DNA of 64,000 nt, from the NCBI GenBank assembly GCA_026770025.1, contig JAMXDE010000018.1, positions 868,001 through 932,000 of the forward strand, given 5' to 3'. The notes beneath the pieces are model-generated. The model did no database searches, was not told the DNA's origin, and saw only the letters and a list, made by a program, of their open reading frames with translations. Shown here one piece after another: positions 27,962 through 56,879 of this stretch; position 1 is the stretch's first letter; the number at the start of each line of letters is the position of its first letter. This DNA is from Craspedostauros australis (taxonomy: Eukaryota > Bacillariophyta > Bacillariophyceae > Mastogloiales > Achnanthaceae). The position numbers and the translations under genes are program-made.

Positions 27962-28022
27962 CTGGTGTCTCGTGGCTAGTTTCCGTTTTTTGGTAATTAT
28001 TGGTAATTATTGGTAACCATTG
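27962..28022 (+). repeat. Left inverted repeat of the candidate transposon
   Basis: Matches the reverse complement of 30462-30518 at 15 of the first 18 positions and again over the TTTTTTGGT..TATTGGT block. It contains a short internal tandem duplication of AATTATTGGT. Confidence 0.55.
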
Positions 28023-30461: not shown

Positions 30462-30518
30462 CCAAATGTTACCAATAGTCACCAAAAAATGACCTCCCTT
30501 CAAGCCACGGGACACTAG
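30462..30518 (-). repeat. Right inverted repeat of the candidate transposon
   Basis: Inverted partner of 27962-28022. It lies about 110 bases downstream of the ornithine decarboxylase stop codon, so it may affect that gene's 3' end. Confidence 0.55.
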
Positions 30519-30627
30519 AGTTAGTGTTTCCACGCCTCTTGATGCCATCGACATCCCCACTGATTGCCGCGCCGCAGCAATCGCAAACATGCTCTGCTCT
30601 TGTATCCGCCCTTGCGCTGATTGGAAT

Positions 30628-31471
30628 CTACTCCTCCAACATCTTGGGCAAAACGCTGCAGGTGTAGTACTTCTTGGCCAGACTGAATCCATTGAAGGTG
30701 CACGCCGAGCTGCTAGTGTAGGCTCCCAGGTTCTTGTAGTAGAGGCAGTCGCCGATCTCCAGCTGCGGCAGGAGGACCGACCGGTTGACAACATCGCCAG
30801 CATCGCAGGTGGGGCCGAAGATGGTGGAGGGGTAGAGAACGTCTTCGTTGTGATTAGTAGACTTGATGGGGTTGCTGCGCAACAACCGTGGTCTCACGTG
30901 GAGGGTGTCGTCCCAAATTAGATTGTTGAATGGACCATACACGCCTTCGTTGAGGTAGTAGGCGAAGTCGTCGCGGGCAGCAACAGCTGTCTTGTCTGAG
31001 CCCTCGGCATTGTCTTTGTTGGCAAGGTTGCTGCGGACGCTGGTGACAGAAACGACGACAGCAGAGCAGGCGGACACCAGGTATCGTCCTGGCTCGCCCA
31101 TGACTTGGACGCTGTCCTCAGGGAAGATCTCGTCGATGAGGGGCGAGATCTGATCGGCCATGCCGGGGAACGACATGAGGGACATCGCCCTCTCGAGCGC
31201 CTCTTCATCTTCCTCCAATTCCTTGGGATGATCCTCATTGGGGACCTCGGAGAGGTTGGCCGGATTCCAAGGGGAGATCGTGTCGCCAGGGAAGCCACCG
31301 CCGATGTCCAAGAGGTTCATATCGAAGCCGAACTCGTTCTTGCCCATATCGAAGATTTCGCGGGCATCGTTCAGTGCCGTCTTGTAAGTGGATGCAGTGC
31401 GGCAGTTGGAACCAACATGGAAGGCAACACCGACGACGGGCAAGCCGCATTCCTTGGCAGTGCTCAGCAGA
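30628..31471 (-). pseudogene. Ornithine decarboxylase, 3' (C-terminal) part, separated from its 5' part by retrotransposon A
   Basis: Group IV PLP-dependent decarboxylase, converting ornithine to putrescine, the first step of polyamine synthesis. This part encodes GLPVVGVAFHVGSNC, the phosphate-binding Gly loop LDIGGGFPG, the EPGRYL segment and the second-subunit active-site Cys in GPTCDAGDVV, ending PKMLEE at the stop 30628-30630. The frame enters from the target-site duplication GCAGA (31467-31471) and is intact. Together with the part at 54617-55445 it accounts for about 555 residues, and one copy of the duplication restores the reading frame exactly (829 plus 839 bases, divisible by three). 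As sequenced, this half lacks a start codon and promoter and the catalytic Lys. Confidence 0.92.
31467..31471. repeat. Target-site duplication of element A (left copy, GCAGA)
   Basis: GCAGA abuts the LTR start at 31472 and is repeated at 54617-54621 immediately after the other LTR. Confidence 0.93.
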
Positions 31472-31917
31472 TGTTAGACTTGAGGAATTGGTTGTAACTT
31501 AGGAAGAACGCGTCCTTCTGCGATTGATCAGGTCGAGAAGGTGGCGTTCACTGGTAGTCTGTTGGGAACTCAAATGTTATTACAAACTTAAGAGTTGTGA
31601 GCTTAATCTCTGACCTCTGTTCATGTCCATGCCTCTGCTCTTGCATTCCTCTGCTCTGCAAGCATCGGATGGGATCCTTAGATCTCTTCAAGTTCAACTT
31701 GTTTGGGTCAGTAGCTATCTCACAGTATCGTTCTTGTATCGTGGTACCTTGTCTCTGGTACCCAGTACCTTGGTACATCTTCATTTTCGTTTCTCGTCGA
31801 GCTATTCGCTCGTAATGTGACCATTTCATGGTCCGTGTTGGTTCAGGATACGGTTCATACGCACAACTAAGCTGGAACACGAGAGAGAGCTGTGCGGAAT
31901 AAAGCATAATGCTAATA
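31472..31917 (-). repeat. 3' LTR of element A
   Basis: 446 bp, starting TGTTAG and ending CTAATA on the plus strand. One visible difference from the partner LTR at 54171-54616. Confidence 0.95.
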
Positions 31918-31925
31918 CTCCCCGA
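31918..31925 (-). promoter_or_regulatory. Polypurine tract of element A
   Basis: On the minus strand the sequence just upstream of the 3' LTR is purine-rich (CGGGGAG), the expected plus-strand primer for reverse transcription. Confidence 0.6.
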
Positions 31926-31943
31926 AGCGTATCTCTGTGCCTG

Positions 31944-34664
31944 TCACTCATGTGTTGACGTGTTCGTGTCTCCTTTCCAGAATAGGAGCGGTTGCACCAA
32001 ATCCCAGAAGATTGATCTGGGAAGAAGCTTCGTGAGTACGTCTGCGACGTTCTGGTGTCCATGGATCTTCACGAAGTACATGATCCCTGCAGCGATGGCA
32101 GACCGAACTCGGTGGTAGGCGAGCGCGTTGTGCCGCTTGGTGAGGGTGCTGTTCGGGATGTTCGATGAAGAGAGAACACCTTGGTTGTCTCCAAACATCC
32201 AGCTTGGTCCGTCGATGGGGATGCCCATTTCACAGAGCGTGAGACGTAGAGATATGATCTGTTCAGTAGCCAGGCGTGCAGCCACGAACTCAGATCCGTA
32301 GGTTGCTGTCTCCACGGTTGACTGTCTCTTCGAGAACCAATCGATTGGTGTCTGATTTACGAGGTGGAGTATGCCAGTGGCAGACTTCCCGGACGCTCTG
32401 CAGTGCAGCAAGTTCGCATCCACAAAGGTGGTTGTCCTCATGGCCTTACCGCGTGGTGCAGGTGCATCTGATGGGAGTTCTTCTGTGGTGTCGCCGTACA
32501 CGGTGTACGCCCAATCCTGTTTTGGGGTATCGTAGTGATCTTCATGTTTGGGAATACCAGTGCGGAATCGGATGGATGCGTCAGGGTATTTTCGCAGGTA
32601 TCCATACACTTGCTTTGCTCGATCCAGGTGTCCCTTTCGTGGTGCAGATCGGAATCGGGAGAGCGTCATGACCGCGACATGGATATCGAATCGTCCAAGT
32701 GTGACACACCATTGGAGAGCTCCGATCAAAGACATGTACTGTCGTTTCTGGATCTCACCAAGCTCTGGGGTAATGTCGAGTTCAGGACTGTCGTCCTTGT
32801 CGAGGGGACTGCTCCGTTTGTGGGGTGGCCCATCAAACATGGTCTCGAAGTTGGTCAACATCCGCTTGATGTATGACCGAGCGCTGATGCGCATGGTTCC
32901 GTCTGTGTCTCGGCCGAAGTCAGCTCCCAAGTGGTATGAGACTGGGCCGACTCCCTTCAGCTTGTAACCGTACTGTGCCGTCAGCTGATCGAAGAAGGAT
33001 CGGGGATCTGCCATCACAGCCATCAGGTCGTCCACGTATACGCATACGTATTCCCAATGAGTGTTGGCGTCACGCATCCAGACGTCAGGATCTGCTCGGC
33101 ATTGAATGAATCCCATGTCTCGCAAGGTATCGGCCAGTGCCTCATGGAATCTGGCTCCGGATGTGCGTAGACCATACAGCGCCTTGATGATGGTGAACAT
33201 GTTGCCTGCCTTGTCTCCAAATTCTTCTCCTGCGATGAAGCATATCTTCTCTCTGGTGTACGCCTCGAGGTACGCGTTTCCGATGTCGCCTACCATGGTC
33301 TGTAGACCATTGGTTTCACCAGCTAGTAATGCGATTCGAAGGGATTGAAGACTCACGACTCCGGCGTAGGATGTATCTCCGCACGGATCTGTCAGATGTC
33401 CACCCGCAACACACCGGGCCTTGTGACGCAAGTCATGCTTGACTGCGTACACCCATTGGAGTCGGATCTTTTGGTATCCATCTGGCACTTCAGTCGTCTT
33501 TCCGAGAGACTTGAAGGTACCGTAACCAAAGAGTTGCTCCATCTCTGTTTGCTCTGCCCTTGCCCAGTTGTTGTTGCCATTCTTGGTATCCAGACGCATG
33601 GCTTCTTGGTGGTTGCGTGGCACCTGCACACCGAATTGGTAGATGGGTGTGTTGGTGTGTCGTTTGGACTTGGTCTTGGCAATGTGTGCTTGCCGTTTCA
33701 TGCGTCCTTGCCGTTCAGCAGTCTTCTTGAGACGCTTCCACCCTGGCTGTTCGAGAAGGTCATGCTTGCGTCCGTAGACAGCACACGACACAGGATCGTC
33801 TTGGATCATCAGCGAGAGCGGTTCTGTGGTCAAAGATCCATCATCCCATTGGACAATCACATTGTATTTGGATCCTTTGTATCGGTTGGAGGTTGGCACC
33901 AGAGGTCCTTCATGTCCTGTGATGCTGTGGAATCCCCACTTGGCGTCTTCTCCATTGGTGTTGCTGTCTGCCTGTTGTTCAATCAGGTCGGACAGTTCCA
34001 CATACGAGATGAGGTCGTTGACAGCTCCGTCGTCAATGGAAAGGAGCATCTTGATGCGTTGGTGGTTTGCGGCATCAGCATCGTTCACACGTTGGATGAC
34101 TTCTGCCTTGACTTGCTCACCATCACGATCATACACGAAGGTCTTTCCAATCAGTTCCTCAGGTGTGAAGTGCGGCACCTTGACGACTCCCCCGTCCGTC
34201 GCTCCTTTGTCGGCTCCATCAGAAGCGAAAAGAACGGCGTCTGAGAGGGAATGGACGACCGGGTCGGCAGTGGACTCGATGAAAGAGTCGTCTTGGAGCT
34301 CCCCATCAGCGGATGGGATCTCAGCCAAGCCGTCATCCTCCCCAGCGTCGGGCATGGGGAAGTCGGCACGAAGGTTGGACTCGGGTGGGAGGTCGGCAGC
34401 GCGGATAGCAGATCGCGGTAGGAGCTGCTGCGTCTCGTCGTCGAGCACCCAGTACGTCAGATCGTCGCCCTTGTGGAGACACGGACCCGCCCAGCGCCCC
34501 TTTCGCTCGCGAGACTGGCTGGGAAAGCCAGGTTTCTCGACTCGGTAGTACACTGGCTGCCACCAGTGGTAGCACATGAACTTGCTCACGTCGGGGCGAT
34601 GCCCGTAGGCAGCCTGCATTGGCGTGACGTTGCCAGCAGTTCATTGCGCCAGGTGGTTGAAGAG
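31944..34664 (-). CDS. Element A Gag-Pol polyprotein, C-terminal part: end of integrase, reverse transcriptase, RNase H
   Basis: Continues the frame of 51263-53941 after the B insertion; 907 codons including the stop. An in-frame TGA (34641-34643) interrupts it 7-9 codons in, followed by NVTPMQAAYGHRPDVS, the end of the integrase region. The copia-type reverse transcriptase (RVT_2) runs from WARAEQTEMEQL, with KHDLRHKARCVAGGHL, the catalytic motif CVYVDDLMAV (around 33030) and SYHLGADFG. RNase H follows with FVDANLL, ATYGSEFVAARLA and MFGDNQGVL, ending near the HGHQNVADVLTK motif. Apart from the TGA the domains look complete, consistent with a young insertion. TGA may derive from CGA by transition. 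Confidence 0.9.
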
Positions 34665-34670
34665 GACGAT
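34665..34670. repeat. Target-site duplication of element B (left copy, GACGAT)
   Basis: Six bases, repeated at 51263-51268. The duplication lies in the coding region of element A, and one copy removed restores A's frame. Confidence 0.9.
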
Positions 34671-35324
34671 TGTTGAGAAATCCGGGTAACCCAGCCTTAT
34701 TAGTTGTATCTGATTACCTATTCCTGTTGTTGCATTCTCAGAACTGTGAGCATAACATCTCCATCTCTTTCAATTCCATTGCCATAGCATGCATAATCCA
34801 TGGTAGTATCGTGAGATACTGCTGTATTCATCATGTCATGCAGCATGTACTTCATGTACATTTCATCATGCATCTCATCATGCACTTCATCGTGTATTTC
34901 GTTTCGCCCTGCATTCTTGCGGCAGGAGTCCACAGTCGTGCATCCATCTTGTCACAGGTTTCGTCTTGAAACCCGCGACACTTCTGAATCTTTCTGATGG
35001 TCCAAACCTGCGGCTTTTCTTGTCCGCAAGAGGGCGCATGCTTCGTTTCTCTTGATGGGGTGATCACAGACCTGTTGGTCATCGATGTTTCTCCCATGAC
35101 GTCGTCGTTTGATCTGTTGCGTTGTCATGGTTCTTCTTGTTAGAGGAGGACAGGCTTGTTGTCTTGTTACGACTGAGATCAGTCACGTTTGTCTTGAGTC
35201 ACGGGTCGAGTCACGTATGTGATGAGTCTCGGGTTTGAGTCACGGATGTGAGTCACGGATGATGTTATTGGGAGGTGCGGCAATCATGGGTATCTTGGTA
35301 AAAGCGTACCCTCGATTCCTGACA
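34671..35324 (-). repeat. 3' LTR of element B
   Basis: 654 bp, TGTTGAG..CCTGACA on the plus strand, matching 50609-51262. It contains a short array of ATCATGCA-type repeats (about 34845-34885) and repeated GAGTCACG motifs (about 35195-35260). Confidence 0.95.
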
Positions 35325-35406
35325 CCCTTCCATTGTCGCATCGACAATATATCATTCTGACTTCATACTCCCTTGACTCTCATCACCATTACTTCTCTCT
35401 CTTTCT

Positions 35407-36997
35407 TCACCTTTCTTTGACTCCCATCACCAATCTCATTCTCATCATTAATCCATTGGGAATCGCAATTGGATGATGTGGCCCTTGTGTCCTCAACCCG
35501 ATGTTGTTCATCAGTTGAGTCTGGAAGCGGATCTCATTTCTGGCCTCCAATAGTGCAACGTGCTCAGCCTCCATTGAGCTCAGTGTCACACTGTGCTGTG
35601 CCCTTCGATCTCCAGATGATCGGCACTCCTTGTAGTAGGACGATGTGTCCTCCCATACTGATGCGATTGTCCTTGTCACCACCGAACTCGTTGTCGGTGT
35701 AGATCACAATCTTCCATGCATCGTTCTCGAATGGACTTGACTTCATCCGTGGTCCATATTCTCTCGTGTCCGACATGCACTTCATGATCCTCAGCATTTC
35801 CTTGTATGCTGCAGCCGTTGGTCCATCCAACACCTTGGTCAGTTCGCGTGTTGCGTTGGCGATGCCGGGTTGCGAGTGCTTCATTTGATATAGCAGCATA
35901 CCTACTCCACTTCGGTATCTGCTGTGTCGGTCTTTGTCCACCTTGGGCGAATCGCTATCCCTTTTGGATGCCTTGCCCTGGTGTTCCTGGTGTACCATAC
36001 TGTTGCAGCTTCATCACGTTGTCCTTGAATGTGATGATGACGTTCTTGATGATGTGCGGTTGGCTCATCCAGCAGCTCGTCTTGTCGCGGTTGGATACGA
36101 TCTTGCAGCTGATGTAGTCTTCCTGATCATCCTCCACCTTGGTATCGAACCGCTCTGCTTTGATGTCTCCCTTGGGTTTCTTCAACTCCTGTTCGTCCTC
36201 GATGCATAGGCAGTCGCCGACGTAGGTTCCAATCAATAGCAGTCTCCCTTCCTGATTCCGAATCAGAAGGCATGGATCAACTTGGCTTGGTCCGAATCCC
36301 AATTTGAGTAGGATGTCGACCAGCTTCTTCCATTGTCGTGCCCTTTGCATGATTCCGTTGATCGTCTTCTTGAGCAACAGTCATTCGCTCTCACCATGCT
36401 CCATGCCCTTCTGGCAAAGCATGTATACCTCCTCTTCGAGATCTCCATGTAGAAATGCTGTCTCAAGGTTGATAGTGATGCTGTCCAATGTTCAGTAGCA
36501 TCTTCATTGTGAGCATTCCGCAGTAGGTTGCGTCATGCATCATGGGTTAGTTGCGTTGAGAAGTCTATTCCTGCGATCTGCGAGTATCCGCATGCCACAA
36601 GTCTGGTGCGGAACATGCCATTCCTCTTCTCCTTGAAGGCCCACTTGGTCTTCACGCATCGCCAATCCTTCGGCATCTGGTCCTTCTTGATCTTCTGCCA
36701 GACTCCTCGTCTGACCATGTCGTAGGACCCCTTATTGATGGCATCTCGCCATTCCTTTCGCTTTGCTGGATCCACATGATCCCAGTATTCTTCAAATGTG
36801 GTGAGGTCCAGCATCATAGTCGTGTATGCATGCTTCGGACGTCTCATACCCTCTCTCGCGGTTGCTGAGGTCTGCTCTGCTTCCTCAGCTGACTCACCAC
36901 CTCCGCTGTTTGAGTCTGAGTCGGAGTGGTGTTCTGGCGTGTTGTTGTGCGGTGCCAAGCCGCGTGGCATCCGTGGCATCTTCGCCACTGGTCTCAT
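35407..36997 (-). pseudogene. Element B reverse transcriptase/RNase H remnant
   Basis: Pieces in several frames read in order from 36997 down to 35407. First come DLTTFEEYWDHVDPAKRKEW and WQKIKKDQMPKDWRCVKTKW (start of copia RVT_2). Next is LIGTYVGDCLCIED, where the catalytic YVDD is YVGD. Then RSGVGMLLYQMKHSQPGIAN, and finally VTLSSMEAEHVALLEARNEI of RNase H. Frameshifts occur near 36380-36530, 35955-36000 and 35560-35680, and the distal RNase H is lost. It cannot encode an active enzyme. Confidence 0.85.
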
Positions 36998-38480
36998 GGG
37001 AGAGTACTCGAGGTCCGTGCCTTCAGCAGCTTGCCTCCAAGTCGCTCATACTTCGTCCCTTCTGCTGGTCAGGATCCACATGATCCTATCATTCCTTAGG
37101 CGCATATACACTCGGCATCATTCCAGTGTTGATGTGCACAAATCTCTCTCGCCGTCGCGTTCGCTCTCAACATCCTGACTCGAAGCGATGAAGTCGACCA
37201 CTCTCATCCTTCATTGGATAGCATCGATCCTCATACCTGCGACGTTGTTGTTGATGATTGACCCGTCTGTTTCGAAGTTGGGTCCGTCTCTTGCAACTGG
37301 AGCGGTCATTGTCTCCTGTGCAATTGCGTAGCCATCGTCATCTCCTGATTCTGATGCTTCGTTCGTCACCCTCGTTGGGTGTTGGCATATTGTGATAAGC
37401 TGCCAGCTCTGTCGTCGTGTTGCCTTGCAACCATGTTGTCGATCGCCTTCATCCTCTTCTGGATAGCATCAATTCATTATGCTGCAGCTTCTTCGTCATG
37501 GGAGTTGTTGGTGGCCTCCTGCCATTCATCCTCCATTCATCTGAGGTTCCTCCCTTCCGGCTCTGTCATTGGATTCTTCATCTGACATGCCCGCGTCTCT
37601 CTCATTGATCGCATATCGATGCGTCTTGACTCACTGTATCTGAAATCCGCCGTTCATGGTTCGCGCTCTCATAGCTGTGTCCTTTCCAGATCCGAGTCTC
37701 TCTCGTCGATTTCATTCTCATCGCACACCGATCTCATATCTGTGCTTGTGGTATCTCGCCGATCATTCGGCGTCCGGTTCCTCTTGATCTTCTGCCATGC
37801 TCATGCTGTGGCCTTATCACTGAACCGTTCCATCGTGGCCTCCCGCCATTCATTGCTCTTCTTGGGATCCATATAACCCCGTCATTCGTCAATTGTGGTT
37901 GGATCCAGCATCATTGCGTCATTTGCTTGCTCGGATCCCTCTCTGTTATGTTGATAGTTCAATGCTTGGTTCACAGTGATGAAGTCACCCAAGCTCATCC
38001 TCTCATGAGTGGTGTCATTCATCATACCTGCGATATCTCTGTTGAATGTTGACCCATCAATATGAAAGCTAGGTCCTCCTGTCGCCGGTGGTGTGGTAGT
38101 TGTCTCTTGAGTGGTCTCATAACCCTCATTATCCTCTGATTCTCATTCTCCACTTGATCCAAGGTCTCGCTCCTCCTTCGGATGGGCGTATAATTGTACC
38201 CTGCGAGAGCACTCAGCATCCTCGGCATGCGCGCAACAGGTTCTGCGATTGGGACCGTGTTTGGTTCACCTTCGACCATATCGTATCGTCCCGTCTCATC
38301 GTCCCTTCCGGATTCATCGTCGTCGTCATCGTACGATTCATTGTCCCCTTGGGTAGGGAGCAAGTCATCTTGCCCACGAGCAGCGTCTTCTGTATCTATA
38401 TCTTCTCCGGCTCTTCTGCTCTGAATAGCGTCGTCGGTCTCCATGCTTCGGATGGTATCCGCACGTCGCTCCCAAGTCAC
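36998..38480 (-). repeat. Degenerate tandem duplications of the element B pre-RT region
   Basis: Segments resembling 36533-36997 recur: 37780-37920 repeats the part giving IKK..W and the LDLTTF region, and 38200-38260 repeats PVAKMPRMPR as PVARMPRML. The stretch 37215-37370 also resembles 38020-38150 (shared catacctgcg.., ..gttgacc.., ..cctctgattct). Spacing is about 0.8 kb. All copies are too decayed to translate as one protein. Confidence 0.6.
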
Positions 38481-41121: not shown

Positions 41122-41126
41122 ATAAC
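41122..41126. repeat. Target-site duplication of element C (left copy, ATAAC)
   Basis: ATAAC is repeated at 50593-50597 directly after the other LTR of C. Confidence 0.85.
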
Positions 41127-41886
41127 AGCGAGAATAGAGGGCAAATGAAGTCCGGTTGTGTTCGGCTTTGCCTTCCAGTGTCGGACTTTGGCAGGTCAAA
41201 AGGGGAAGTGAAACTGCCAACGTCAGCGCGGTTAAACGTAGTGTGACCACGAACGTAGATGAGACGATTGAGAATGTGTTTTGAGTTGATTTGGTGGTTG
41301 TAAAGCTTGAGTTTTGTAAGATTGTTGTTTTTATGAGATTGTTTTGGTTGAAGGTTGGAGAGGAAAACGAGATGGGCTGGTCATCACACTGCTCTGCTGT
41401 TGGTTGTCGCTGTTCATGGTCTTGTACATTTGAAAAATTGCTCCACAATCCCCAGGCGATGAAACCACGATGCTTCATCGCTCTTGGCAGGTTTGAGAGC
41501 TGATTCTCCAATTGTTGGAGTGAAGGTGCGAGTGTTCCATGTCTTAGTCTTGTTCCAATTTTGCAGGATAGTCTTGCTTTTGATCCAAGACCGGCACATC
41601 CTGCATGGAAGATGTCAGTTTCATACATATGTAATCTTGGAACACATGGCAAAGAGGCAAGTGAGAAGCATCAACTGTGCATGCAGGATGAGCCATGCAC
41701 TTGTATTCTTGCAGACAGATGCCTTCACATATGTAGTCTCTTTTGGAGGTAGAGTGCCTGTCCATTTGTTGCTCAATCGTGTGTACTGGTGGTAGTACAG
41801 ACAATTCGGTCACCGGTCAATGGGGGCATGAAGGGAAAATACCAATTTTCAGCAATGTTTCAGTGACATCATGGTATATTGCAACT
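41127..41886 (-). repeat. 3' LTR of element C
   Basis: 760 bp, AGCGAGAATAG..TTGCAACT on the plus strand. No difference from 49833-50592 seen. Confidence 0.94.
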
Positions 41887-41895
41887 CTCCCTCTC
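41887..41895 (-). promoter_or_regulatory. Polypurine tract of element C
   Basis: Minus-strand GAGAGGGAG directly before the LTR end AGTTGC. The same tract abuts the LTR of element E. Confidence 0.8.
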
Positions 41896-41953
41896 GACAA
41901 GCAATGGGACCCGTATCGTGAAAAACCTCTTCTTCTTCAAACCATCTCACCGT

Positions 41954-44900: not shown

Positions 44901-47900
44901 GGTGGGACTGAGTCTCGCAAGTTGGCCTTCTCCATATTGTTCTGGCCTTCTCTTGGTGCATCAGTTGCAGCACTTGTTGGTTGAGCTGTTGGTGGTGCAG
45001 AGACTTCATCCGGCACTGGTGCAGTATCTGATGGTGATGGTGGGAGCTCCGGTCCAAGTTCCACAGGAAGCGGCTCTGATGGTCGATGATCCGCATTTGC
45101 TTGCTCTGCGAGTTGGCGATTCAGATCCTGGTCATGGCTGTCCTGCTCCTCTGTTTCCTGATCCTGCTGCTCGAGGCGTTCCAAATCTTCTTCATCAAAA
45201 GGGAACTTGTACTCGGTATCTCCAAACAGATTCCTCCATTGATCCGAGTTATAGTTGGGAAGGTTGGATGGATCCGAAGGCACTGTGGCAAACCAGTCGT
45301 CAAACACCACATGAAATTGAGGTGTGATGCTTCCAGTCTTGAGATTCAGAACCAGTGGGACGGTAGAGGAGTGCTTCTCGGAGAGGCCGACGTGCACAAA
45401 ACGATCGCTCCGGGCCTTCCATTTTGGAATCTTCTTCCCATCTCCAACTCTGTGATCCAGCACATAAGTGGGGCATCCCCAGACGTGTAGGTTGTGGAAA
45501 TGCTTCTGTGGGAAGCGAATTCGGGCAAGGATGTCGAAGGGAGAGAGGCCGTTCGCGAGGTTTGGCAGCCGATTGAAGATGAATGCGGAATGACGAATTG
45601 CCATGGGCCAGAGTGGCACGACGTCCAGTTCGGGCCAGTGCAGAGTGGCATGGAGCATCATGGTTCGAGCGCTTGACACCACGGTACGAATGCTTCGTTC
45701 GGCGATGCCGTTGTGGTGATGCGCTCCGCGTCCTGCATATCGATGGGATTGATGGAAGTGTCGAAGGTGGTCAGCATAGTCTGATGAGGTGAATGCCCTT
45801 CCATTGTCGCTTTGGTATTGTTGGACAACAATGCCGAGATCTCGACACATGCTCTCGAACTTCTCCTTTGCTCTGATCATGTCTTGAGAAGATGTAGACA
45901 GGACTGGCTCAGCGAAGATGAATCCTGAAGCATGGTCGACGAATACGATGCCGGCTCCGTACATTTCGTCATCGCTCCCTTTTCCATATCCCGAGAAGAG
46001 TCGTCCCTTTCCACCCCCTTCAAAATGATCCACAGAGACGAGTTGGCCAGGCCGAAGATTACCGAACTTGATGGCTCCCTCTCGATCACGTACTGGTCGG
46101 TGCAGATGGCCCGGGCTTGAGCGACAGACTTGTTTCCCAAACTGGCATGCTGCGCACTTTGGAAGTGTGGCGAGGCGGGAGGCGCTTGCTTGTAGCTTGC
46201 GTGCGGCTTCGGTGTGCGCCAGGGTTCCCGAACGAAAAAGGTGCTGGATCTTCCGCATGTCATTGTGGCCCAGGCGTTGGTGCCAACGCAGCAGCTCCTT
46301 CTGTGGTTCGGACAGGTTGCGGTTGGCGGAGGAAACAGTAGTGATGGTTGCATTGAGGGCATGTGGAATGTGCTCGGTCAATGACTTCATGTTGTATGCC
46401 TTGGAAGTTGGAAGCTTGTTCTTGGGATTGATCTTGATGTTGATCTCTCCCTCTCTTCCTTGGACCTTCCACCTGCCATTCACATACTGCAGCTCGCCTG
46501 GATACATTCTTTCGAACACAGAGGTGCTGATGATCTTGGCGTTGCTTCTTGGCACATAGTATGCCGGGAATTTGAGACGGCGAATGTTTCCTCTCGTGTC
46601 TTGGATGCCCCATTCCACGGTTCCCACCAAGTGGTCAGATCGTCCTCCAAACAGCCCTGTCAGTTTCTTGGCTTGGTTTCCAATTGGCCTTCTGGGTTCG
46701 GAGACGAAGTCGGACTTGTCATGTGAGATACAGACGGTGGATCCGCTGTCCCAAATGACATCACATATCATCTTGGCTGGAAGGACGTTGGCGAGCTCGT
46801 CTGAGCTGTGACGGACAGCCGAGAAACTCGTGATAGAGGATGGTCCATCGTGTGTGCACACAGAATTTGACGGAGGCGCGTCCTCAGGCTTGAAGTAGGT
46901 GCTGAGGATCTGGGCCAGTCTGCTGGTTTGTTTCTCGGTGAGTCGCTGTCGCTGAGCAGGAGCAGGAGCATCAAATACCATCATTCGCTGACGCTGATTG
47001 CGATGTTTCTTCTTGGATGGTCCTTGCACTTCATGTCGACGAATAGGAACGGCTCTGGTTCCGAACCTGGCACCATGGCTGATGGAATTGGCTCTTGGCC
47101 GTGGGTTGGAGAAAGCCGTGCTTCTGAATCTGTGCTTGTTCGGGTTGTTCTCAAGACCGATCACACGATGACTGCGTCGCCTCAACCCAGCTGCTCTTGC
47201 TCTGGGATGCATGTTGGTTGATGCATGCATTGCAGATACTGGAGGGTCGAAGCGAGAGCGGTGGTGGCGGAGACGAATCGGAGCACGACGATGAAAGTTG
47301 ATCCAATCCTTGGGTTGGGCTCGGTCACGACGGCGACCTTTCTTTTCCCAATAGGCTTCGCAGCGGCGTTGCCAACGAGGCTTGGGAACTGGACCATCAG
47401 GGTGGCGAGGCATGTCATGGTGCTTGCGTGCCAGGTATGTTGCAGTGACCATCCATGCTGCAATCGAGGCTGTCTCCCACCCATGCATGATTGCAAAGAT
47501 GAGGACCTGGATGAGCAGCGGAATGAAAAGAGGAAAGGCACCAATGAGGAGAGCCAATGGACCAAGGTAGGCCTGGATGATTTGGAACCACCCAGATGGA
47601 CTTTCTTCCGTCACCTTGTAGACGTGCCATTCGGTGGAATCGAATGTGACTGTGTTGGCAGCGGTCTCGCTCTTGTTCTTGTTCTTGTCCTTGAAGTCGC
47701 TTCTGTGCTCGCTGGTGCCATGGGAGGTGAGCCAACGCTTGCACTTGGCACACCACTTGAAAGTGGAGCTCCTGACAACCTTCTGGTGCGGTTCACCCTT
47801 GGAAGGGGGAACAGAACGCCAACTGGTGTTGGAAGAACCCTTCTTCGCGTTGTTGGAACCCTTCTTGCCCTTGCTGCTGTGGTTGGAGCCTGCACCTTTC

Positions 47901-49324
47901 TTCAGATTGGGGCAGTTGGCCTTGACATGACCAGGTTCTCCGCAGTTGTGGCAGATGATGGGCGTCTTTCCACCATTCTGCATCAGGGCCAGCGCCGTGC
48001 TTTCGTCGATCTCGATGCCTCCATTTTCTCCAGAGAGGAAATACCCAGCGTTGCTGTTCTTGCGATTGCGCAAGTAGGAGGCAGCATGCCATTGTCCAGC
48101 ATGGAGCTCTTGCTTGTACAGGTCGGTGGCAAGATTGCAGACATCACGCCAGTGAAGGCGATCCTTCAAGATGCGTCGGTCCTTCTCGGCCTTGGTGCAG
48201 CACCCGATTTGGATCAGCACTTCCTTGAGGTTGCCGAGTTTGCTGTGGAGACCAAAGCGGTAGCGCTCCCCGGATGTGCCAGAGCCGCCAGCAGAGAGAA
48301 ACTTGGTGAGGATGTCCGCAGTGAGGGCGTGGTCATATTGGCCAGCATCTTCGAGAACTTGGGCGTCCTTGCGGGTGTCATCAGCAAACTTCTTGATGTT
48401 CTCACCGGCATAGGTCTTGGGAGTGCGACGGCGGATGTTCTGCTTGATGCGATCATACTTGTCGAAAGTGGTGGTTCGCAAGTCCTCGATCAGCTCCATC
48501 CAAAGAATGACAAAATCCTCGCGTTGATCCGGATGGACCCGCGCCAAGATGTCGTCCTTCAGGCTTGGCTGGAGAGAGTTGAGGAGAAAGCGGCAGGCAG
48601 TGATGTTGTTGCGGCGGTCGTACTCATCAAAATGGCTTGCCATTTCGGTTGCTTCTTCCATGATGGTCTTTTGGTTGAAGCGGTATGGATGGGCAACGAC
48701 GCTGGTCGTGTCTTCGGGGTCGGATGGCTCCTTGAGGTAGGAGATGGTGTCGAGCCCTCTGGCTTTGAGTTCGGACATGAAGTCGCGCTGGAAGGCTTGG
48801 AGATCGCTCTGGCGGTGGAACTTGGGTTCAAGGCCCTTCTCCATGTCGGGTTGGCTCTTGACATCGGCTCCGCTTGCAGTGGAGCGCTTCTGGAGAACGT
48901 AGAGGTAGGTGTTGGGCTCGTCAACAAGCCCAGACCAGTCAGCTTTGGGCTTTCCCCCGGTGAAGGGGAACCAGTTCTTTCCCACCTTGACGATGTTGCC
49001 CATCACCGGCTTGGTTGGGCGATTGGCGAGTTCACGTTCCGTCTCGGCTGCGGTGCGGCCCAGTTCGAAGATTTCCTGGGAGGTGTTGACACCAGATACC
49101 TCGGTTTGAAGGAGACGCTCGTGGGCTTCCTCCCTCTCAGTCAGATTCGCGAGTCGTTCTTGAAGGACTTGGCTCGCTTCGTTCAGTTGTTGTTGCTGGG
49201 CCAGAAGGCGGGCCTGCATCTGGCTGAGTTGTTCCAAGGTTGCTGCTTGAGTGGCAGCTACCTCGGCTTGAGTTGTGGTGGCTCCACCTTGGGTGACGGT
49301 GGCCTCCGGTTGATCATCCGCCAT
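41954..49324 (-). CDS. Element C Gag-Pol polyprotein, intact (2456 aa)
   Basis: One continuous frame from the ATG at 49324. Order of domains: an N-terminal Gln-rich coiled coil; copia Gag; a CCHC zinc knuckle (CHNCGEPGHVKANC, about 458-471); a hydrophobic segment (about 575-635) with two predicted membrane helices, unusual for this family; an Arg/His-rich stretch; aspartic protease (VIWDSGSTVCIS, about 859); the HHCC zinc domain (HQRLGHNDM, CAACQFGKQVC); and integrase core D,D,E (SVDHFEGG, YQSDNGRAF, NGIAERSIRTV). An acidic linker of about 550 residues follows, then reverse transcriptase (LALYVDDAGIA, about 2124) and RNase H (CYVDADFAGL, TTEAEYAALSMA, VFEDNNACIS). No stop or frameshift. It should be cleaved by its own protease. 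Confidence 0.96.
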   Translation of the reverse strand: MADDQPEATVTQGGATTTQAEVAATQAATLEQLSQMQARLLAQQQQLNEASQVLQERLANLTEREEAHERLLQTEVSGVNTSQEIFELGRTAAETERELANRPTKPVMGNIVKVGKNWFPFTGGKPKADWSGLVDEPNTYLYVLQKRSTASGADVKSQPDMEKGLEPKFHRQSDLQAFQRDFMSELKARGLDTISYLKEPSDPEDTTSVVAHPYRFNQKTIMEEATEMASHFDEYDRRNNITACRFLLNSLQPSLKDDILARVHPDQREDFVILWMELIEDLRTTTFDKYDRIKQNIRRRTPKTYAGENIKKFADDTRKDAQVLEDAGQYDHALTADILTKFLSAGGSGTSGERYRFGLHSKLGNLKEVLIQIGCCTKAEKDRRILKDRLHWRDVCNLATDLYKQELHAGQWHAASYLRNRKNSNAGYFLSGENGGIEIDESTALALMQNGGKTPIICHNCGEPGHVKANCPNLKKGAGSNHSSKGKKGSNNAKKGSSNTSWRSVPPSKGEPHQKVVRSSTFKWCAKCKRWLTSHGTSEHRSDFKDKNKNKSETAANTVTFDSTEWHVYKVTEESPSGWFQIIQAYLGPLALLIGAFPLFIPLLIQVLIFAIMHGWETASIAAWMVTATYLARKHHDMPRHPDGPVPKPRWQRRCEAYWEKKGRRRDRAQPKDWINFHRRAPIRLRHHRSRFDPPVSAMHASTNMHPRARAAGLRRRSHRVIGLENNPNKHRFRSTAFSNPRPRANSISHGARFGTRAVPIRRHEVQGPSKKKHRNQRQRMMVFDAPAPAQRQRLTEKQTSRLAQILSTYFKPEDAPPSNSVCTHDGPSSITSFSAVRHSSDELANVLPAKMICDVIWDSGSTVCISHDKSDFVSEPRRPIGNQAKKLTGLFGGRSDHLVGTVEWGIQDTRGNIRRLKFPAYYVPRSNAKIISTSVFERMYPGELQYVNGRWKVQGREGEINIKINPKNKLPTSKAYNMKSLTEHIPHALNATITTVSSANRNLSEPQKELLRWHQRLGHNDMRKIQHLFRSGTLAHTEAARKLQASASRLATLPKCAACQFGKQVCRSSPGHLHRPVRDREGAIKFGNLRPGQLVSVDHFEGGGKGRLFSGYGKGSDDEMYGAGIVFVDHASGFIFAEPVLSTSSQDMIRAKEKFESMCRDLGIVVQQYQSDNGRAFTSSDYADHLRHFHQSHRYAGRGAHHHNGIAERSIRTVVSSARTMMLHATLHWPELDVVPLWPMAIRHSAFIFNRLPNLANGLSPFDILARIRFPQKHFHNLHVWGCPTYVLDHRVGDGKKIPKWKARSDRFVHVGLSEKHSSTVPLVLNLKTGSITPQFHVVFDDWFATVPSDPSNLPNYNSDQWRNLFGDTEYKFPFDEEDLERLEQQDQETEEQDSHDQDLNRQLAEQANADHRPSEPLPVELGPELPPSPSDTAPVPDEVSAPPTAQPTSAATDAPREGQNNMEKANLRDSVPPSRREAAHDDKGDDNDNIPLPSDDQDTMDHDRPSVETPDASSAKAQPETSPIASNPAPQQRERRRRNRQQQPVRRSARIEARRSNPRKRAPPQRLEYSQMGGMAQAFVCQPIHQTSPSIDAVTAAHLSSSILSAIELLKGANGSNSPITEPLHSIEEAAIHMTTSMSELEKLKQDSCGRINPHIAQVDSNARARLTAAEEAACDMIRTALSTLALYDSPDNHFRWQIADMSETIYAVHGRLLQQDWSDNDDIDEGGDRIMVHMAVQDDGRDPDRRDDQQEEEFALPQDLQNEIDQLANLLTALHIIEHYGLDAYSTNFDFDELRDWWTQVAAGHNIDPPEGLPRVSPNGEENSQSNASRSSDNPDSNMPDSAEQDTSDHDPDDVEQCLWIDSIPQLADPSMTACDTNGAEEYAFLTMNEDGESDPSGRSISGSEAVFLMSNGHLELSEGPSSFKASPTDPDTLSFDEAMKDEDREKWMEAAKKEVTDLVSKGTWVEVSKAEAVGKIAPGTWVFRRKRRPDGSIKKHKARFCVRGDLVDETESTLAPVVAWPSVRVFLITAILLGWVTVSIDFVSAFVQAAIHRDIYIHLPRGFRSTNGPNVCLKLRKSLYGLTVAPRLWHEHLLRALTAEGFKASEQDPCLFLRPGMMLALYVDDAGIAAPHEKDIDDFIQSMTRRGFELTKEGTFNEFLGIKLDKNRDGSIHMSQQGLIDKIIAATGMEACNPNWIPATKAALGSDPDGEAMKESWNYRSIIGMLLYLATNTRPDIAFAVSQAARFSHSPKQSHARALKTIVRYLARTKAQGTIIRPSGKLDLQCYVDADFAGLHHREPDDNPTSVKSRTGYIIILGGCPLIWRSKLQTEIALSTTEAEYAALSMAMRALIPLQQLIREVAARTGLKQELLTHLQCTVFEDNNACISLATKHHITNRTKHFLVKWHFFWYWVKEGFIKIQRVASAEQIADIFTKGSVREIFESLRKLLMGW

Positions 49325-49817
49325 CCTTCAAAAGCTGCGCTTGAAGAGGTTGCGGATTTTCTGATGAGCAGCTGAGCTGCTGGTTCGCAGATGTTCTGCT
49401 GGAGTATCGATCGATGGTCGCAACTGCGTTGCGAGTTGTGATTGCTGAGCTTCAGTCAGCAGGTGTCTGGGAGTGAGGCAACTGTGTTGCGGGCAGTCAG
49501 CTGCACTGCTGCGGGTAGATCAGTGGGTGCCTGTGGCAGGAGCAACTGTGTTGCAAGCAGTCAGCTGCGCTGCTGCGGGTAGATCAGCAGATGATCGGCT
49601 GATTATTGTCGGAGCAACTGCGTTGCTGGCGTTCGGACAGCTGGACTGTCAGTGGGCGGCTTGACTCTTGCTTCCTGCAGTGAAGCTCACAGGGTCCAAG
49701 CCACGGATGCGGGTCGCTGTGGCAGCGACTTAGTTGGATGAGGAAGTCTGAGACTTCGTGGGATCGGTTCTTGCGCTATTGATGAGGCTCTCTGTCGAAT
49801 CTTGACTTCAGCGTAAG
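49325..49817 (-). promoter_or_regulatory. 5' leader of element C with short tandem repeats
   Basis: Between the primer site and the Gag ATG. GCAACTG(T/C)GTTGC recurs at about 49416, 49478, 49542 and 49614, each within a related 62-72 bp unit containing GTCAGCTGC..CTGCGGGTAGATCAG. A packaging or dimerisation role is possible but unproven. Confidence 0.6.
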
Positions 49818-49832
49818 ACCAGGCTCATAACC
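49818..49832 (-). promoter_or_regulatory. Primer-binding site of element C, resembling the anticodon arm of a Met tRNA
   Basis: Directly next to the 5' LTR the plus strand reads ACCAGGCTCATAACC. It has the form of positions 27-40 of a tRNA: stem CCAGG, seven-base loop CTCATAA with anticodon CAT, then CC pairing with the two last stem bases. The element RNA would pair with an internal tRNA fragment, as known for Drosophila copia and yeast Ty5. No CCA-type 3' end match is visible. Confidence 0.7.
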
Positions 49833-50592
49833 AGCGAGAATAGAGGGCAAATGAAGTCCGGTTGTGTTCGGCTTTGCCTTCCAGTGTCGGACTTTGGCAG
49901 GTCAAAAGGGGAAGTGAAACTGCCAACGTCAGCGCGGTTAAACGTAGTGTGACCACGAACGTAGATGAGACGATTGAGAATGTGTTTTGAGTTGATTTGG
50001 TGGTTGTAAAGCTTGAGTTTTGTAAGATTGTTGTTTTTATGAGATTGTTTTGGTTGAAGGTTGGAGAGGAAAACGAGATGGGCTGGTCATCACACTGCTC
50101 TGCTGTTGGTTGTCGCTGTTCATGGTCTTGTACATTTGAAAAATTGCTCCACAATCCCCAGGCGATGAAACCACGATGCTTCATCGCTCTTGGCAGGTTT
50201 GAGAGCTGATTCTCCAATTGTTGGAGTGAAGGTGCGAGTGTTCCATGTCTTAGTCTTGTTCCAATTTTGCAGGATAGTCTTGCTTTTGATCCAAGACCGG
50301 CACATCCTGCATGGAAGATGTCAGTTTCATACATATGTAATCTTGGAACACATGGCAAAGAGGCAAGTGAGAAGCATCAACTGTGCATGCAGGATGAGCC
50401 ATGCACTTGTATTCTTGCAGACAGATGCCTTCACATATGTAGTCTCTTTTGGAGGTAGAGTGCCTGTCCATTTGTTGCTCAATCGTGTGTACTGGTGGTA
50501 GTACAGACAATTCGGTCACCGGTCAATGGGGGCATGAAGGGAAAATACCAATTTTCAGCAATGTTTCAGTGACATCATGGTATATTGCAACT
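49833..50592 (-). repeat. 5' LTR of element C
   Basis: Partner of 41127-41886; it would contain the element's promoter. Confidence 0.94.
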
Positions 50593-50597
50593 ATAAC
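50593..50597. repeat. Target-site duplication of element C (right copy, ATAAC)
   Basis: Repeats 41122-41126. Only 11 bases of element B lie between it and B's 5' LTR. Confidence 0.85.
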
Positions 50598-50608
50598 GTT
50601 TCGAAACG

Positions 50609-51262
50609 TGTTGAGAAATCCGGGTAACCCAGCCTTATTAGTTGTATCTGATTACCTATTCCTGTTGTTGCATTCTCAGAACTGTGAGCATAACATCTCC
50701 ATCTCTTTCAATTCCATTGCCATAGCATGCATAATCCATGGTAGTATCGTGAGATACTGCTGTATTCATCATGTCATGCAGCATGTACTTCATGTACATT
50801 TCATCATGCATCTCATCATGCACTTCATCGTGTATTTCGTTTCGCCCTGCATTCTTGCGGCAGGAGTCCACAGTCGTGCATCCATCTTGTCACAGGTTTC
50901 GTCTTGAAACCCGCGACACTTCTGAATCTTTCTGATGGTCCAAACCTGCGGCTTTTCTTGTCCGCAAGAGGGCGCATGCTTCGTTTCTCTTGATGGGGTG
51001 ATCACAGACCTGTTGGTCATCGATGTTTCTCCCATGACGTCGTCGTTTGATCTGTTGCGTTGTCATGGTTCTTCTTGTTAGAGGAGGACAGGCTTGTTGT
51101 CTTGTTACGACTGAGATCAGTCACGTTTGTCTTGAGTCACGGGTCGAGTCACGTATGTGATGAGTCTCGGGTTTGAGTCACGGATGTGAGTCACGGATGA
51201 TGTTATTGGGAGGTGCGGCAATCATGGGTATCTTGGTAAAAGCGTACCCTCGATTCCTGACA
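50609..51262 (-). repeat. 5' LTR of element B
   Basis: 654 bp, matching 34671-35324 with no difference seen. Confidence 0.95.
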
Positions 51263-51268
51263 GACGAT
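51263..51268. repeat. Target-site duplication of element B (right copy, GACGAT)
   Basis: Partner of 34665-34670. Confidence 0.9.
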
Positions 51269-53941
51269 GACATACATCGTGCAGATCAACCAGAAACAAG
51301 CAGGGGTTCCAGTTCGGTCCATGACGCCGTTGGTCATCCTCTTGATGTCCTGGATGCGTCTCTCGGCGGCGTTCTGGTGTTGATGCTCGGGTTCACTTTG
51401 GTGGTCGGCAATAGCATATTGCCGGAGGATGTCTTGCATCTTGAATCCGATCTCTACCTTCGCATTGTCTGACATCAACAGATCCGGAGCTCCATGGCGC
51501 CGGATGAACTCCTGAAAGGTGCTGGAGACCTGCTTCTCGGATGCCATCGGGAATCCAGCGGTGAAGCGAGAGTCCACAGCAACGTAGATCTGAATCATGG
51601 TGCACCCACCATGTCCTGGAACACCATCATCGTGTGCTGGTGTATCGGAAAAGAGCGTGTCCATCGCCACGGTCTCATGGAGACGGTTGACGTTGGCTGC
51701 CGGGAATCTGGTCTTGAAATGCTTACGCATCGCAAAGCGCTCGGAGGAACGGTACCATTGGGAGGTACAACGGAGTGTGTCTCTGATGCGTAGAGCGGGG
51801 ATCCAACCGAAACGTGGGCGGAGCGCCTCGTAGTCGATTGGTGTACGCTGGATGGAAAACGGTTTCACCGCTTCGTCTAGTTTCCGGGTTTTCTCGAAAA
51901 TCCGGGTTTCTTCGAAAATCCGGGTCTCAGAAATTGGAACATCGTCGTTAGGTGCGATAGTTTCCTCAGAAAACTCATCCTGGGAACTATCTGCCGCCCG
52001 GGTTTCTTGATCGAGTGCGGATGGGTCCCAAACCTCATCCGCCGTGAAGTCAACGTGAGGATAGGATTTCATCTCTTGGATCGTGGGTGGACGCATGTCC
52101 ATATACGACAGACCTTGTCGGATCGCAAGAGGAATGATGTGCCCATCTGGCACAATGATGGATTGACGACCACCTGGAAGGCTGCTTGGTCGCTCGTTCA
52201 CGTCCAACCCAAACGCTCCTAGTTGGTTGGAGGAATGGATTGTCTTACCTTTCCCATGAATGGCATACTGGTAGAACTTCGCGATGATGGGTCCTTCAGT
52301 TGACATGACGAGGCCAGCCACGGTGCCGATTTCGAGGTTGACAATCGTGGTATCACCAATCCCGTTGATATCCGCTGTGTGTCCGGTCCTGTCCAGGACC
52401 ACAACATCGTCTCCAGCGAGACCTCCGTTTGCTCCACTGTCAATCAGGGAACCAGACATGTTGGTGGTTGCCTTGTTGAAGCTGTAGCGAACGTCAGTGA
52501 TGTTCACAGCACGATAGACCTTTCCATCAACTGTGATCTCTTCACTCTTGCTTGTTTGGGTGTTCGCTAGCATACGCTTGATAGCGTCACCAGGGTCAGT
52601 GCTTGTCTTGGTACCGGTCTCCCCAGAAGAGGATCCTGATGGGGTCTTGTCAGTGCCAGCGGTCTTGTTGGCCTGACGCTGGGACTTGTTCTTGCTCTTG
52701 TTCTTGGAAGGGTCCCATTGACCACGCACCTCCATGTGCACTTTCTTCTGAGGCCAGGTCATCTTCTTCCATTCGTCATCCGGGATGCGGTGGGTTCCGG
52801 TCTTGTTCTTGTTGGCGTTGTCTCCGCCTTTCTCGCTGTCCTTGTTGGTGTTGTTGATCCTGCGCTTCGTCTTGTTTCGCGGGTTGCGCAGGTCGTTGCG
52901 TTGTGCAGAACGACGCACAATACCGAGGAACGCATCGAAGTCCAGAGAGAAGTCCATCTTGCCTGTGGTGAGGCTCATGTTGGTTTGGAGAGCGTCAGCG
53001 TCATCGAGAGCACGGCAGAGATCGTTGTCTGGAGCGATGGCTTCACGCAACCATTGCATCTTCCAGTCATCAGCGACTGGGCTGTCTTGGATCTCCTCCA
53101 GGTCGTTCACCTTCGACAACCAGCTATTGACAAATGTCTCACGGCTGCTGTTCCAGGTGTTGTTGAGCTTCAGGTTCCTGATCTCGGCTTGGATCATCTG
53201 GGCCTTGTTGGTTGCCGCTACGCCAGAGGCGTACTCCTCCTTCAACATCATGTAGAAGCCATGTCCATCCTCCTTGTCGGCGTACGGCAAGAGGCAGTTG
53301 CGGCTCTTCATGGTGCGAAGGGAGTTCGAGAGAACATAGTACAGGAACGTACGTTGCTCTTCGAACAGTGCAAGCTCTTCACTCGCTGGTAGGTACTCCG
53401 GATCGACGGCGTTCTTGATTCCATGAGCAGCTGCGGTGGCTCGGAGACGTCGATCGAACTGCAGGAACTGCTCGTCGTTCTTCAGGGTTGGGTAGTCACT
53501 CAGGTTGCGCTTGGTACCACGCTTGAATAGAGCGACATCATCCGAGGTCGGGGTAGACGAGAGGACCACGTCAGGTGTGGGTACCTCTTCTTCGGTTGTC
53601 TTTGGTTCTGCCTTCTTCTCCTTCTTCATGAAGGTCTGAAGGCGAGCTGCGTTCAGCTCAAGCCAGGTGCTGGCTTCCATGCCTTCTTGGTTCTCGTACC
53701 AGCGCTCCAATGCAAGGATCTTGCGCACATGCAATGCAGCAAGCTTGCAGTCATAGGGTTCGCTACCCTCCTTGGAGATGGTGATGTGGAGGCCATCCAG
53801 GTCCTCCTTCGTCAGCAGCGTGAGGTCGTCGATGTCCTCTATGCCAGATGAGGTGATGACTCGACGCTCATCGGAGTCTCCCTTGATCCCAACCGCCTTG
53901 AGGGCGTGGTTGAGGATGTCCAGTGGGTTCGTGGATGTCAT
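51263..53941 (-). CDS. Element A Gag-Pol polyprotein, N-terminal part: Gag, protease, integrase core
   Basis: 893 codons from the ATG at 53941 to the B insertion, exactly in frame with 34664-31944. The Gag region is about 480 residues and basic near its end (NKSKNKSQRQ), with no CCHC zinc knuckle visible. Aspartic protease: GSLIDSGANGGLAGD (about residue 500). A linker has a three-fold 18-nt repeat (51884-51936, ETRIFEETRIFEKTR). Integrase catalytic residues: VAMDTLF, LLMSDNAKVE, and NAAERRIQDIKR, spaced as a D,D,E core. No HHCC zinc-binding motif (no CxxC) precedes the core. The protein breaks off at CTMYVIV where B is inserted. Confidence 0.9.
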
Positions 53942-54156
53942 CTTGGAGATGATCAGGTTCGTTCTGTCTCTTCACAGCGGATGCGCTCGGGTGATGAGGG
54001 TTCAGTTGGTCGGCAACAGGCTGTTGCGGACTCGTTCAATGCAATTGCGGTTCAGGTGCTATCACGTCGTCACGTGATGCTCGTTCGGTCAGCTGGGATG
54101 CAGCTGTCTTGATATGGGGTTGTTCGTTCACTCAGTCAGCTAGGGACGTAGGGTAT

Positions 54157-54170
54157 TGCGACTGTTAATC
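54157..54170 (-). promoter_or_regulatory. Putative primer-binding site of element A, resembling an Asn tRNA anticodon arm
   Basis: The 14 plus-strand bases abutting the 5' LTR read TGCGACTGTTAATC. They can be laid on tRNA positions 27-40: stem TGCGA, loop CTGTTAA (U33, anticodon GTT, A37), then TC pairing with the last two stem bases. This is the same geometry as in element C, with a different tRNA. Confidence 0.55.
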
Positions 54171-54616
54171 TGTTAGACTTGAGGAATTGGTTGTAACTTA
54201 GGAAGAACGCGTCCTTCTGCGATTGATCAGGTCGAGAAGGTGGCGTTCACTGGTAGTCTGTTGGGAACTCAAATGTTATTACAAACTTAAGAGTTGTGAG
54301 CTTAATCTCTGACCTCTGTTCATGTCCATGCCTCTGCTCTTGCATTCCTCTGTTCTGCAAGCATCGGATGGGATCCTTAGATCTCTTCAAGTTCAACTTG
54401 TTTGGGTCAGTAGCTATCTCACAGTATCGTTCTTGTATCGTGGTACCTTGTCTCTGGTACCCAGTACCTTGGTACATCTTCATTTTCGTTTCTCGTCGAG
54501 CTATTCGCTCGTAATGTGACCATTTCATGGTCCGTGTTGGTTCAGGATACGGTTCATACGCACAACTAAGCTGGAACACGAGAGAGAGCTGTGCGGAATA
54601 AAGCATAATGCTAATA
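54171..54616 (-). repeat. 5' LTR of element A
   Basis: 446 bp, partner of 31472-31917. Confidence 0.95.
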
Positions 54617-54621
54617 GCAGA
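54617..54621. repeat. Target-site duplication of element A (right copy, GCAGA)
   Basis: Partner of 31467-31471. Confidence 0.93.
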
Positions 54622-55445
54622 TCCCTCCAGTGCGCGCGCGTCGCACCAAACTTGGTGGAGAGTGGGTATTCCGAGCCGGAGTCATCCGTGACGATGTGCA
54701 GCACAAGCTCGATGTCCTTGGATATCTCCGCGCACTTTCGGATCTCGTCAGCATTGTCGAATGTGACCCTGCATACATTCTTTTTGATGGCGGCCTGGAT
54801 GTGCGAGCGCTGCTTGCAGGGGTTGGCGAAGATGATGTCGGGGCGCTGCGGCAGATCCGCGGAGCATTCTTCCACGAGAGTAATCTCGCCCAGCGACGCG
54901 CAGTCGAAACCAGCCCCAAGTCTGGCAAGCATCTTGACAATCACGGGATCTGGGTTGGACTTCACAGCAAAGTACGGCGCAACGCGGGGTAAGCGATGCT
55001 TCCATTGCATGTACTGCTGCACAATGCTGCCCAGATCGCACACGTAGAATGCCTCGTCGGTGATATCGGACCCATTCGTCTTGGCAATGGCCTGCTCCTT
55101 GCGGAGGAAATGGCGAGTGGCGTGGCGCAGGCCCTTGCCAATGGCCGAGCCTTCCATGAACACCTTGTTGTCCTGGAGAATGTCAGCAATCACACTGTGT
55201 TCGGGTGAAGCCAGCGAAGGGCGGGCGCTGCCTGTCTGCGTTTGCATTGTTTCTTCGTTGTCTCTCACTGAGTCATAATTGGCAGTCGTCGGCATGATGC
55301 TCATCGACATGCCCAGTGGTTGGCGAGGCGTCATTGATGGTCGATGGATCGACACTTGCATTCGTCCCGTCCTGATACGTGTGGGCGGTGTCAGTCCACA
55401 ACGGAGTGATCTGCATGTGACGACACGTGCTGTGGCAGAAATCAT
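54617..55445 (-). pseudogene. Ornithine decarboxylase, 5' (N-terminal) part, interrupted by element A
   Basis: Encodes the N-terminal half of the PLP-dependent decarboxylase: FYVCDLGSIVQQYMQW, the Schiff-base lysine in YFAVKSNPDP (AAG at 54962-54960), GAGFDCASLGEI, IIFANPCKQ and LSTKFGATRAHWRDLL. It ends at the duplicated GCAGA (54617-54621), after which the frame runs into the LTR of A and stops at 54525. I prefer the ATG at 55445; the frame is also open to an ATG at 55637 with an unlikely low-complexity extension. Without the insertion the gene would be about 555 residues, near the size of other eukaryotic enzymes plus an N-terminal extension. No other lesion is seen, so the gene was functional until recently. 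Confidence 0.92.
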
Positions 55446-55678: not shown

Positions 55679-55777
55679 TGTCAAACAGTACAAGTAACTA
55701 CGGAAGACGTATTGGCCCGTTGTTGCGTGCCCTGGTCGGAGCTCTTGTTGTTTATTTGTGAGTGCTGCCCGAAGACA
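55679..55777 (-). repeat. Possible short 3' LTR of element D
   Basis: TGTC..GACA ends and position just after a purine tract. Unconfirmed, because the partner LTR is not in the window. Confidence 0.3.
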
Positions 55778-55845
55778 GCCCCCGACCAGTATTTGACTAG
55801 TACGATTAGTAAAGAAGTAAGAAGTAAGGAATTCTGTGAGAATTG

Positions 55846-56081
55846 TCACGCCCCTTGATCTCGAGGTAGACCTGCATAGAACAGAGTTGTGACAAATGAT
55901 GTGAGTTCTGGCTTTGCCAGCGCCTTTGTGAGTATATCTGCAAAGTTCCGCTTCGACGGGACATAGACTGGAACAAGGATTCCAGCTCCCACCGCTTCGC
56001 GGACTCTGTGGAATGAGATTGCCACATGCTTCTTTTGGAGCAAGCTGTCTGCAATGGTCGTGTTCGATATCACTGCATTGT
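55846..56081 (-). pseudogene. Element D RNase H, C-terminal fragment
   Basis: In frame: AVISNTTIADSLLQKKHVAI, then VPVYVPSKRNFADILTKALA, the standard end of copia RNase H, and a stop at 55846-55848. It is separated from the rest of RNase H by the solo LTR. Confidence 0.85.
56076..56081. repeat. Target-site duplication of the solo LTR (left, CATTGT)
   Basis: Repeated at 56874-56879. Confidence 0.8.
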
Positions 56082-56873: not shown

Positions 56874-56879
56874 CATTGT
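56874..56879. repeat. Target-site duplication of the solo LTR (right, CATTGT)
   Basis: Partner of 56076-56081; removal of one copy restores the RNase H frame of D. Confidence 0.8.

Follow-up and report, generated by a model that had tools for sequence, protein, structure and literature searches.

We analysed a window of 64,000 nucleotides (positions 868001–932000 of contig C16) that holds an ornithine decarboxylase (ODC) gene, designated copy A, in two parts. No tRNA genes were found in the 64,000-nt window using the bacterial-code setting. The parts of copy A and its 3' flank are located as follows.

54617..55445, reverse strand: N-terminal part of ODC copy A, codons 1–276, with the Met at 55445 and the Schiff-base Lys motif YFAVKSN
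30628..31471, reverse strand: C-terminal part of ODC copy A, codons 276–555 and the stop codon (280 residues), with GPTCD containing the active-site Cys
29591..30627, no strand assigned: 3' flank of copy A, common, wholly or partly, to other units of a tandem array

Structure of the Divided ODC Gene

The N-terminal part of copy A matched positions 1–138 of the PF02784 profile in a Pfam search, and the C-terminal part matched positions 143–247 of the same profile, followed by PF00278. Solved ODC structures aligned with both halves in a structure-chain search, and the halves mapped on codons 1–276 and 276–555 of the sister gene B. These results agree with the sequence-only reading, which had placed the two halves 23,145 bp apart and described the frame arithmetic as exact. 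Sisters B and C, both uninterrupted, comprise 555 codons before the stop, or 1668 bases with it. The domains and the Lys and Cys residues of a eukaryotic-type ODC are present in copy A, but they are distributed over two frames with 23 kb between them.

The same reading held that neither half was otherwise damaged, which is correct for the reading frame but not for the protein. Copy A carries 15 amino-acid changes that are specific to it in comparison with B and C. They include R250H and E521K, at which B, C, the diverged copy D, and the human ODC chain all have R and E, respectively. Counted on the alignments, these residues align with positions 154 and 384 of chain 9b8m_A. We take these two positions to follow human ODC numbering, and ODC residue 154 is presumably located at the active site.

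Because the break interrupts the barrel domain, which binds PLP, and leaves the catalytic residues Lys and Cys on different halves, neither half should work. From the known structure of ODC, we infer that copy A would yield no working enzyme.

Other ODC Genes in the Assembly

The assembly (74.8 Mb in 90 contigs, one haplotype) was searched for other ODC genes, as the sequence-only reading had proposed, and three were found.

C16:946252–947916, approximately 48 kb from A, start to start: ODC sister B, 555 aa, unbroken
C16:1031592–1033256, approximately 133 kb from A, start to start: ODC sister C, 555 aa, unbroken
C6:1415203–1417470, on another contig: ODC D (L018), diverged, open frame of 755 aa

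The search using the C-terminal half of copy A gave five matches at four loci, namely A, B (C16:946252–947091), C (C16:1031592–1032431), and D (in two pieces). The PF02784 search gave seven matches at five loci, comprising two pieces of A, one match each for B, C, and D, and two pieces of a locus on contig C9, which, judged by eye, looks like a diaminopimelate decarboxylase. The 555-aa frames of B and C start at a Met matching that of A, and C is 97.5% identical to B. Furthermore, B and C carry the exact empty site: on either sister, the alignments of the two halves of A overlap by five bases, which is the length of GCAGA. In regard to D, residues 493–641 of its frame (approximately 149 residues) lie between the parts that align with the human chain, which has approximately 14 residues there.

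B, C, and D each have one open frame with both domains and retain the Lys and Cys, C being judged through its identity to B. Their conserved residues lead us to infer that all three would be active. These genes bear on the view that A was a working ODC and that its insertion removed the entry step of putrescine synthesis. The dN/dS of copy A against B and C was 0.14–0.37, and this value and the open frame indicate that A was under some constraint. However, the uninterrupted B, C, and D keep their Lys and Cys motifs, and D scores higher than B on the human ODC chain 1d7k_A (331.0 and 312.3 bits, respectively), which makes a loss of putrescine synthesis most improbable. The concern raised from the window, that the entry enzyme for putrescine was lost, is not supported, and its own proviso of another copy applies. 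The cell probably still makes putrescine, as judged from these predicted enzymes. Loss of a sole ODC is rejected in view of B, C, and D.

Tandem Array

A self-comparison of 184 kb gave repeated units, all on the same strand. The unit-marking flank is located as follows.

27973..28893, no strand assigned: flank marking each unit, four copies on C16 with approximately 89% identity, the others at extended coordinates 76432, 119496, and 161627

Two of the four array units have an intact ODC, one has the split copy A, and one (unit 3, approximately 119.5–121.3 kb in extended window coordinates) has the 3' flank only and no ODC. A tblastn search of the 184 kb using B gave 10 rows, of which four correspond to B, C, and the two pieces of A; the remaining six had E values of 0.14 or more.

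Retroelements Between and Beside the Halves

The sequence between the halves consists of three elements, one within another, and a further block lies upstream of copy A.

31467..31471 and 54617–54621, no strand assigned: target-site duplication GCAGA, present once at the corresponding position of B and C
31472..54616 (23,145 bp), reverse strand: outer element E1 with its nested contents; LTRs 31472–31917 and 54171–54616, RVT_2 in the frame 31944–34640
34671..51262, reverse strand: second element E2; LTRs 34671–35324 and 50609–51262, identical at 654/654 positions, duplication GACGAT
41127..50592, reverse strand: innermost element E3; LTRs 41127–41886 and 49833–50592, identical at 760/760 positions, duplication ATAAC
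55679..64000 and beyond, no strand assigned: retroelement block X; left LTR 55679–55848, duplication AAAGA

The block splits copy A near codon 276, and E1 contains E2, which contains E3. The 446-bp LTRs of E1 differ at one of the 446 positions (C at 31654, T at 54353). E1 is assigned to Ty1/copia by its LTR pair with the GCAGA duplication and by an RVT_2 match of 82.3 bits in the frame 31944–34640; its other long frame (51203–53971) matched no Pfam family at E 0.001 and a single one, at chance level, at E 1. The coding part of E2 consists of short frames with one RVT_2 fragment of 29.3 bits, below the cut-off of 31.6. E3 has a single open frame of 2457 aa with zf-CCHC at 458–474, gag_pre-integrs at 995–1066, rve at 1092–1198 (25.7 bits, under its cut-off of 32.6), and RVT_2 at 1969–2205. 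The integrase thus precedes the reverse transcriptase in the Copia order and the gag zinc knuckle is present, which, together with the paired LTRs and the duplication, places E3 in Ty1/copia as well. An LTR element flanked by GCAGA, a nested block of retrotransposons, and a recent disruption had all been read from the window, and each is borne out by these LTR pairs and duplications, the last by the single difference between the E1 LTRs.

The LTRs of E2 are identical although its coding frames are short, which suggests that E2 is a defective element mobilised by the proteins of another element. The LTRs of E3 end in AG...CT, not TG...CA, and the same ends with 5-base duplications were present in all five other copies examined. 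At least 18 LTR pairs of the E3 family, including the pair in copy A, were present among 40 listed matches at 99–100% identity; this count is a lower bound because 40 of the 51 candidates were scored. The number of such pairs suggests a recent burst. The E1 family gave 40 LTR matches in the assembly, with three further pairs approximately 6.07 kb apart and 5-base duplications at 4/4 other places examined. The E1 family is mobile.

The 5' flank of A is homologous to those of B and C up to 55678, which is 233 bp from the ATG; at this insertion point, both sisters are continuous (empty). The right LTR of block X is at C16:939299–939468 (extended 71299–71468), and AAAGA is present on both outer sides of the pair. 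We read these 170-bp repeats, which differ at two of 170 positions, as the paired LTRs of a further element, which holds other repeats inside it. One stretch of 9129 bp with LTR-like ends runs from 61237 to C16:938365 and has a copy 36 kb further on. Unit 3 without an ODC and copy A with the second block X represent turnover of transposable elements across the ODC array.

The halves could be contiguous in reality, with repeats misjoined between them by the assembly. The region is repeat-rich, and the 9.1-kb stretch of block X is 99.98% identical to the one 36 kb away. However, each junction of E1 has the 5-base duplication expected of a real insertion, the LTR ends of E1 match those at four other places of its family, each with its own 5-base duplication, and the nested E2 and E3 have duplications of their own. 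A misjoin would not produce such duplications, and the exact empty sites in B and C also speak against misassembly. The insertion is therefore taken as real, and we hold an artefact to be very unlikely.

In another alternative, the block would be removed like an intron or read through, or an LTR would drive a regulatory, truncated half of ODC. The reverse transcriptase frame of E1 is on the same strand as ODC, so that an LTR is predicted to be able to start transcripts into the C-terminal half. Such a role fits poorly with a break within the barrel domain, where the PF02784 match breaks off at profile position 138 and resumes at 143, and with halves of which the C-terminal one has no Schiff-base Lys and the N-terminal one no active-site Cys; we give it very little credence. 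A search for antizyme gave no match and is uninformative, since 0/14 control genomes matched either.

Timing and Selection

The synonymous divergences (dS, NG86) between A and B were 0.070 (N-half) and 0.077 (C-half), those between A and C were 0.065 and 0.083, and that between B and C was 0.043. The difference between the E1 LTRs was 0.0022, with a 95% range of 0.00006–0.0125. Comparison of the LTR and synonymous divergences gives the split an age of approximately 3%, and at most approximately 17%, of the separation of A and B, assuming one rate. The E1 insertion is thus shown to be younger than the tandem duplication. The order of X before E1 was not significant (2/170 against 1/446, p = 0.19).

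Changes assigned by the majority of the three genes were 15 nonsynonymous and 19 synonymous for A, 8/8 for B, and 6/8 for C; these branch counts include no outgroup, so that part of the changes counted for A lie on the stem of B and C. The counts for A did not differ significantly from those of B plus C (14 nonsynonymous and 16 synonymous; Fisher p = 1.0), so that a relaxation of selection on A prior to the insertion is not demonstrated. If A were unselected since the insertion, about 1–2 missense changes, and at most about 8, would be expected in it. Most or many of its 15 changes should therefore predate the insertion.

Genome Context

A silica-forming alga had been assumed as the host, and the silicon transporter genes (PF03842) and RuBisCO matches of the assembly support this. 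The PF03842 search gave 88 matches including fragments, on many contigs; 32 rows exceeded 760 bits, 28 of them without an internal stop, and the one control genome that matched was below the cut-off. Three examples are given below.

C11:710408–712021: silicon transporter
C9:2024068–2025684: silicon transporter
C54:11563–13182: silicon transporter

Comparison of a single pair, L051 and L052, gave 96% identity over 1,768 bases, which covers the coding region and little else. In regard to the RuBisCO large subunit on contig C90, the five best PDB matches scored 1049–1072 bits and the sixth 926; we take the five best chains to be those of diatoms. The light-harvesting family gave 61 matches in the assembly. 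Taken together, these three sets of matches indicate a silica-forming ochrophyte, most likely a diatom and less likely a close silicified relative such as Parmales. Excerpts of a 2026 study (PMC13403384) give more than 30 silicon transporter copies for some diatoms or Parmales.

Discussion

The evidence is best explained by the LTR retrotransposon E1 having split one ODC of a tandem family, with E2 and E3 nested later, the sisters covering for copy A, and the redundant copy being tolerated; we assign this explanation a probability of about 0.93. The Copia element E1 would have inserted its copy within the coding region of a redundant ODC gene, and two further insertions, one within the other, would have enlarged it to the 23-kb block. 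Copy A, perhaps weakened beforehand by block X 233 bp upstream of its ATG, would have been tolerated as a redundant duplicate, and the sisters, as predicted from their sequences, would supply the enzyme in its place. The array also allows a broader interpretation, in which LTR elements dismantle it stepwise, so that ODC dosage and the putrescine for silica-forming polyamines vary among strains or haplotypes. This interpretation draws on the one unit without ODC and on the other with elements at both its 5' end and its coding sequence, and we regard it as unlikely.

According to excerpts of the study by Maumus and others (PMC2806351), many of the Copia insertions of Phaeodactylum are confined to a single haplotype. 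By this precedent, and because the assembly shows one haplotype only, the insertion in copy A may be heterozygous. Excerpts of PMC6356823 describe more than one ODC gene as usual in microalgae, with two ODC accessions each for Phaeodactylum tricornutum and Fragilariopsis cylindrus and one for Thalassiosira pseudonana in its table 2. A raphid-specific ODC of Seminavis robusta is upregulated in reproduction, according to excerpts of PMC7335047. Among the titles returned for ODC, diatom, and retrotransposon, none was about a split ODC; this concerns titles only and is not a claim of absence from print.

The E1 insertion and its consequences constitute retrotransposon decay of a duplicate gene, an event of a well-known and ordinary kind, and the split of copy A does not open a long-standing question. 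Its value is that of a clean, datable example from a silica-forming alga in which two sisters retain the empty site. It also illustrates that a single disrupted locus does not amount to the loss of a pathway until the assembly has been searched.

Pseudogenes can arise by LTR retrotransposon insertion into redundant duplicates. Copy A resembles such pseudogenes in general in its target duplication, the empty site of its sisters, and its otherwise open frame, and it differs from them in the three-level nest and the second block beside the same gene, and in nothing more. E1 and E3 are like the diatom Ty1/copia (CoDi) elements described in excerpts of PMC2806351 in their Copia class, near-identical LTR pairs, recent mobility, and, for some, insertion in other elements. 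In contrast, those excerpts report none of the sequenced accession-specific insertions inside genes, whereas E1 interrupts a coding sequence, that of a redundant copy. Compared with the ODC multiplicity of microalgae, as excerpted from PMC6356823, the genes described here form a local tandem array, with one unit split, one without ODC, and two intact, and a diverged copy elsewhere.
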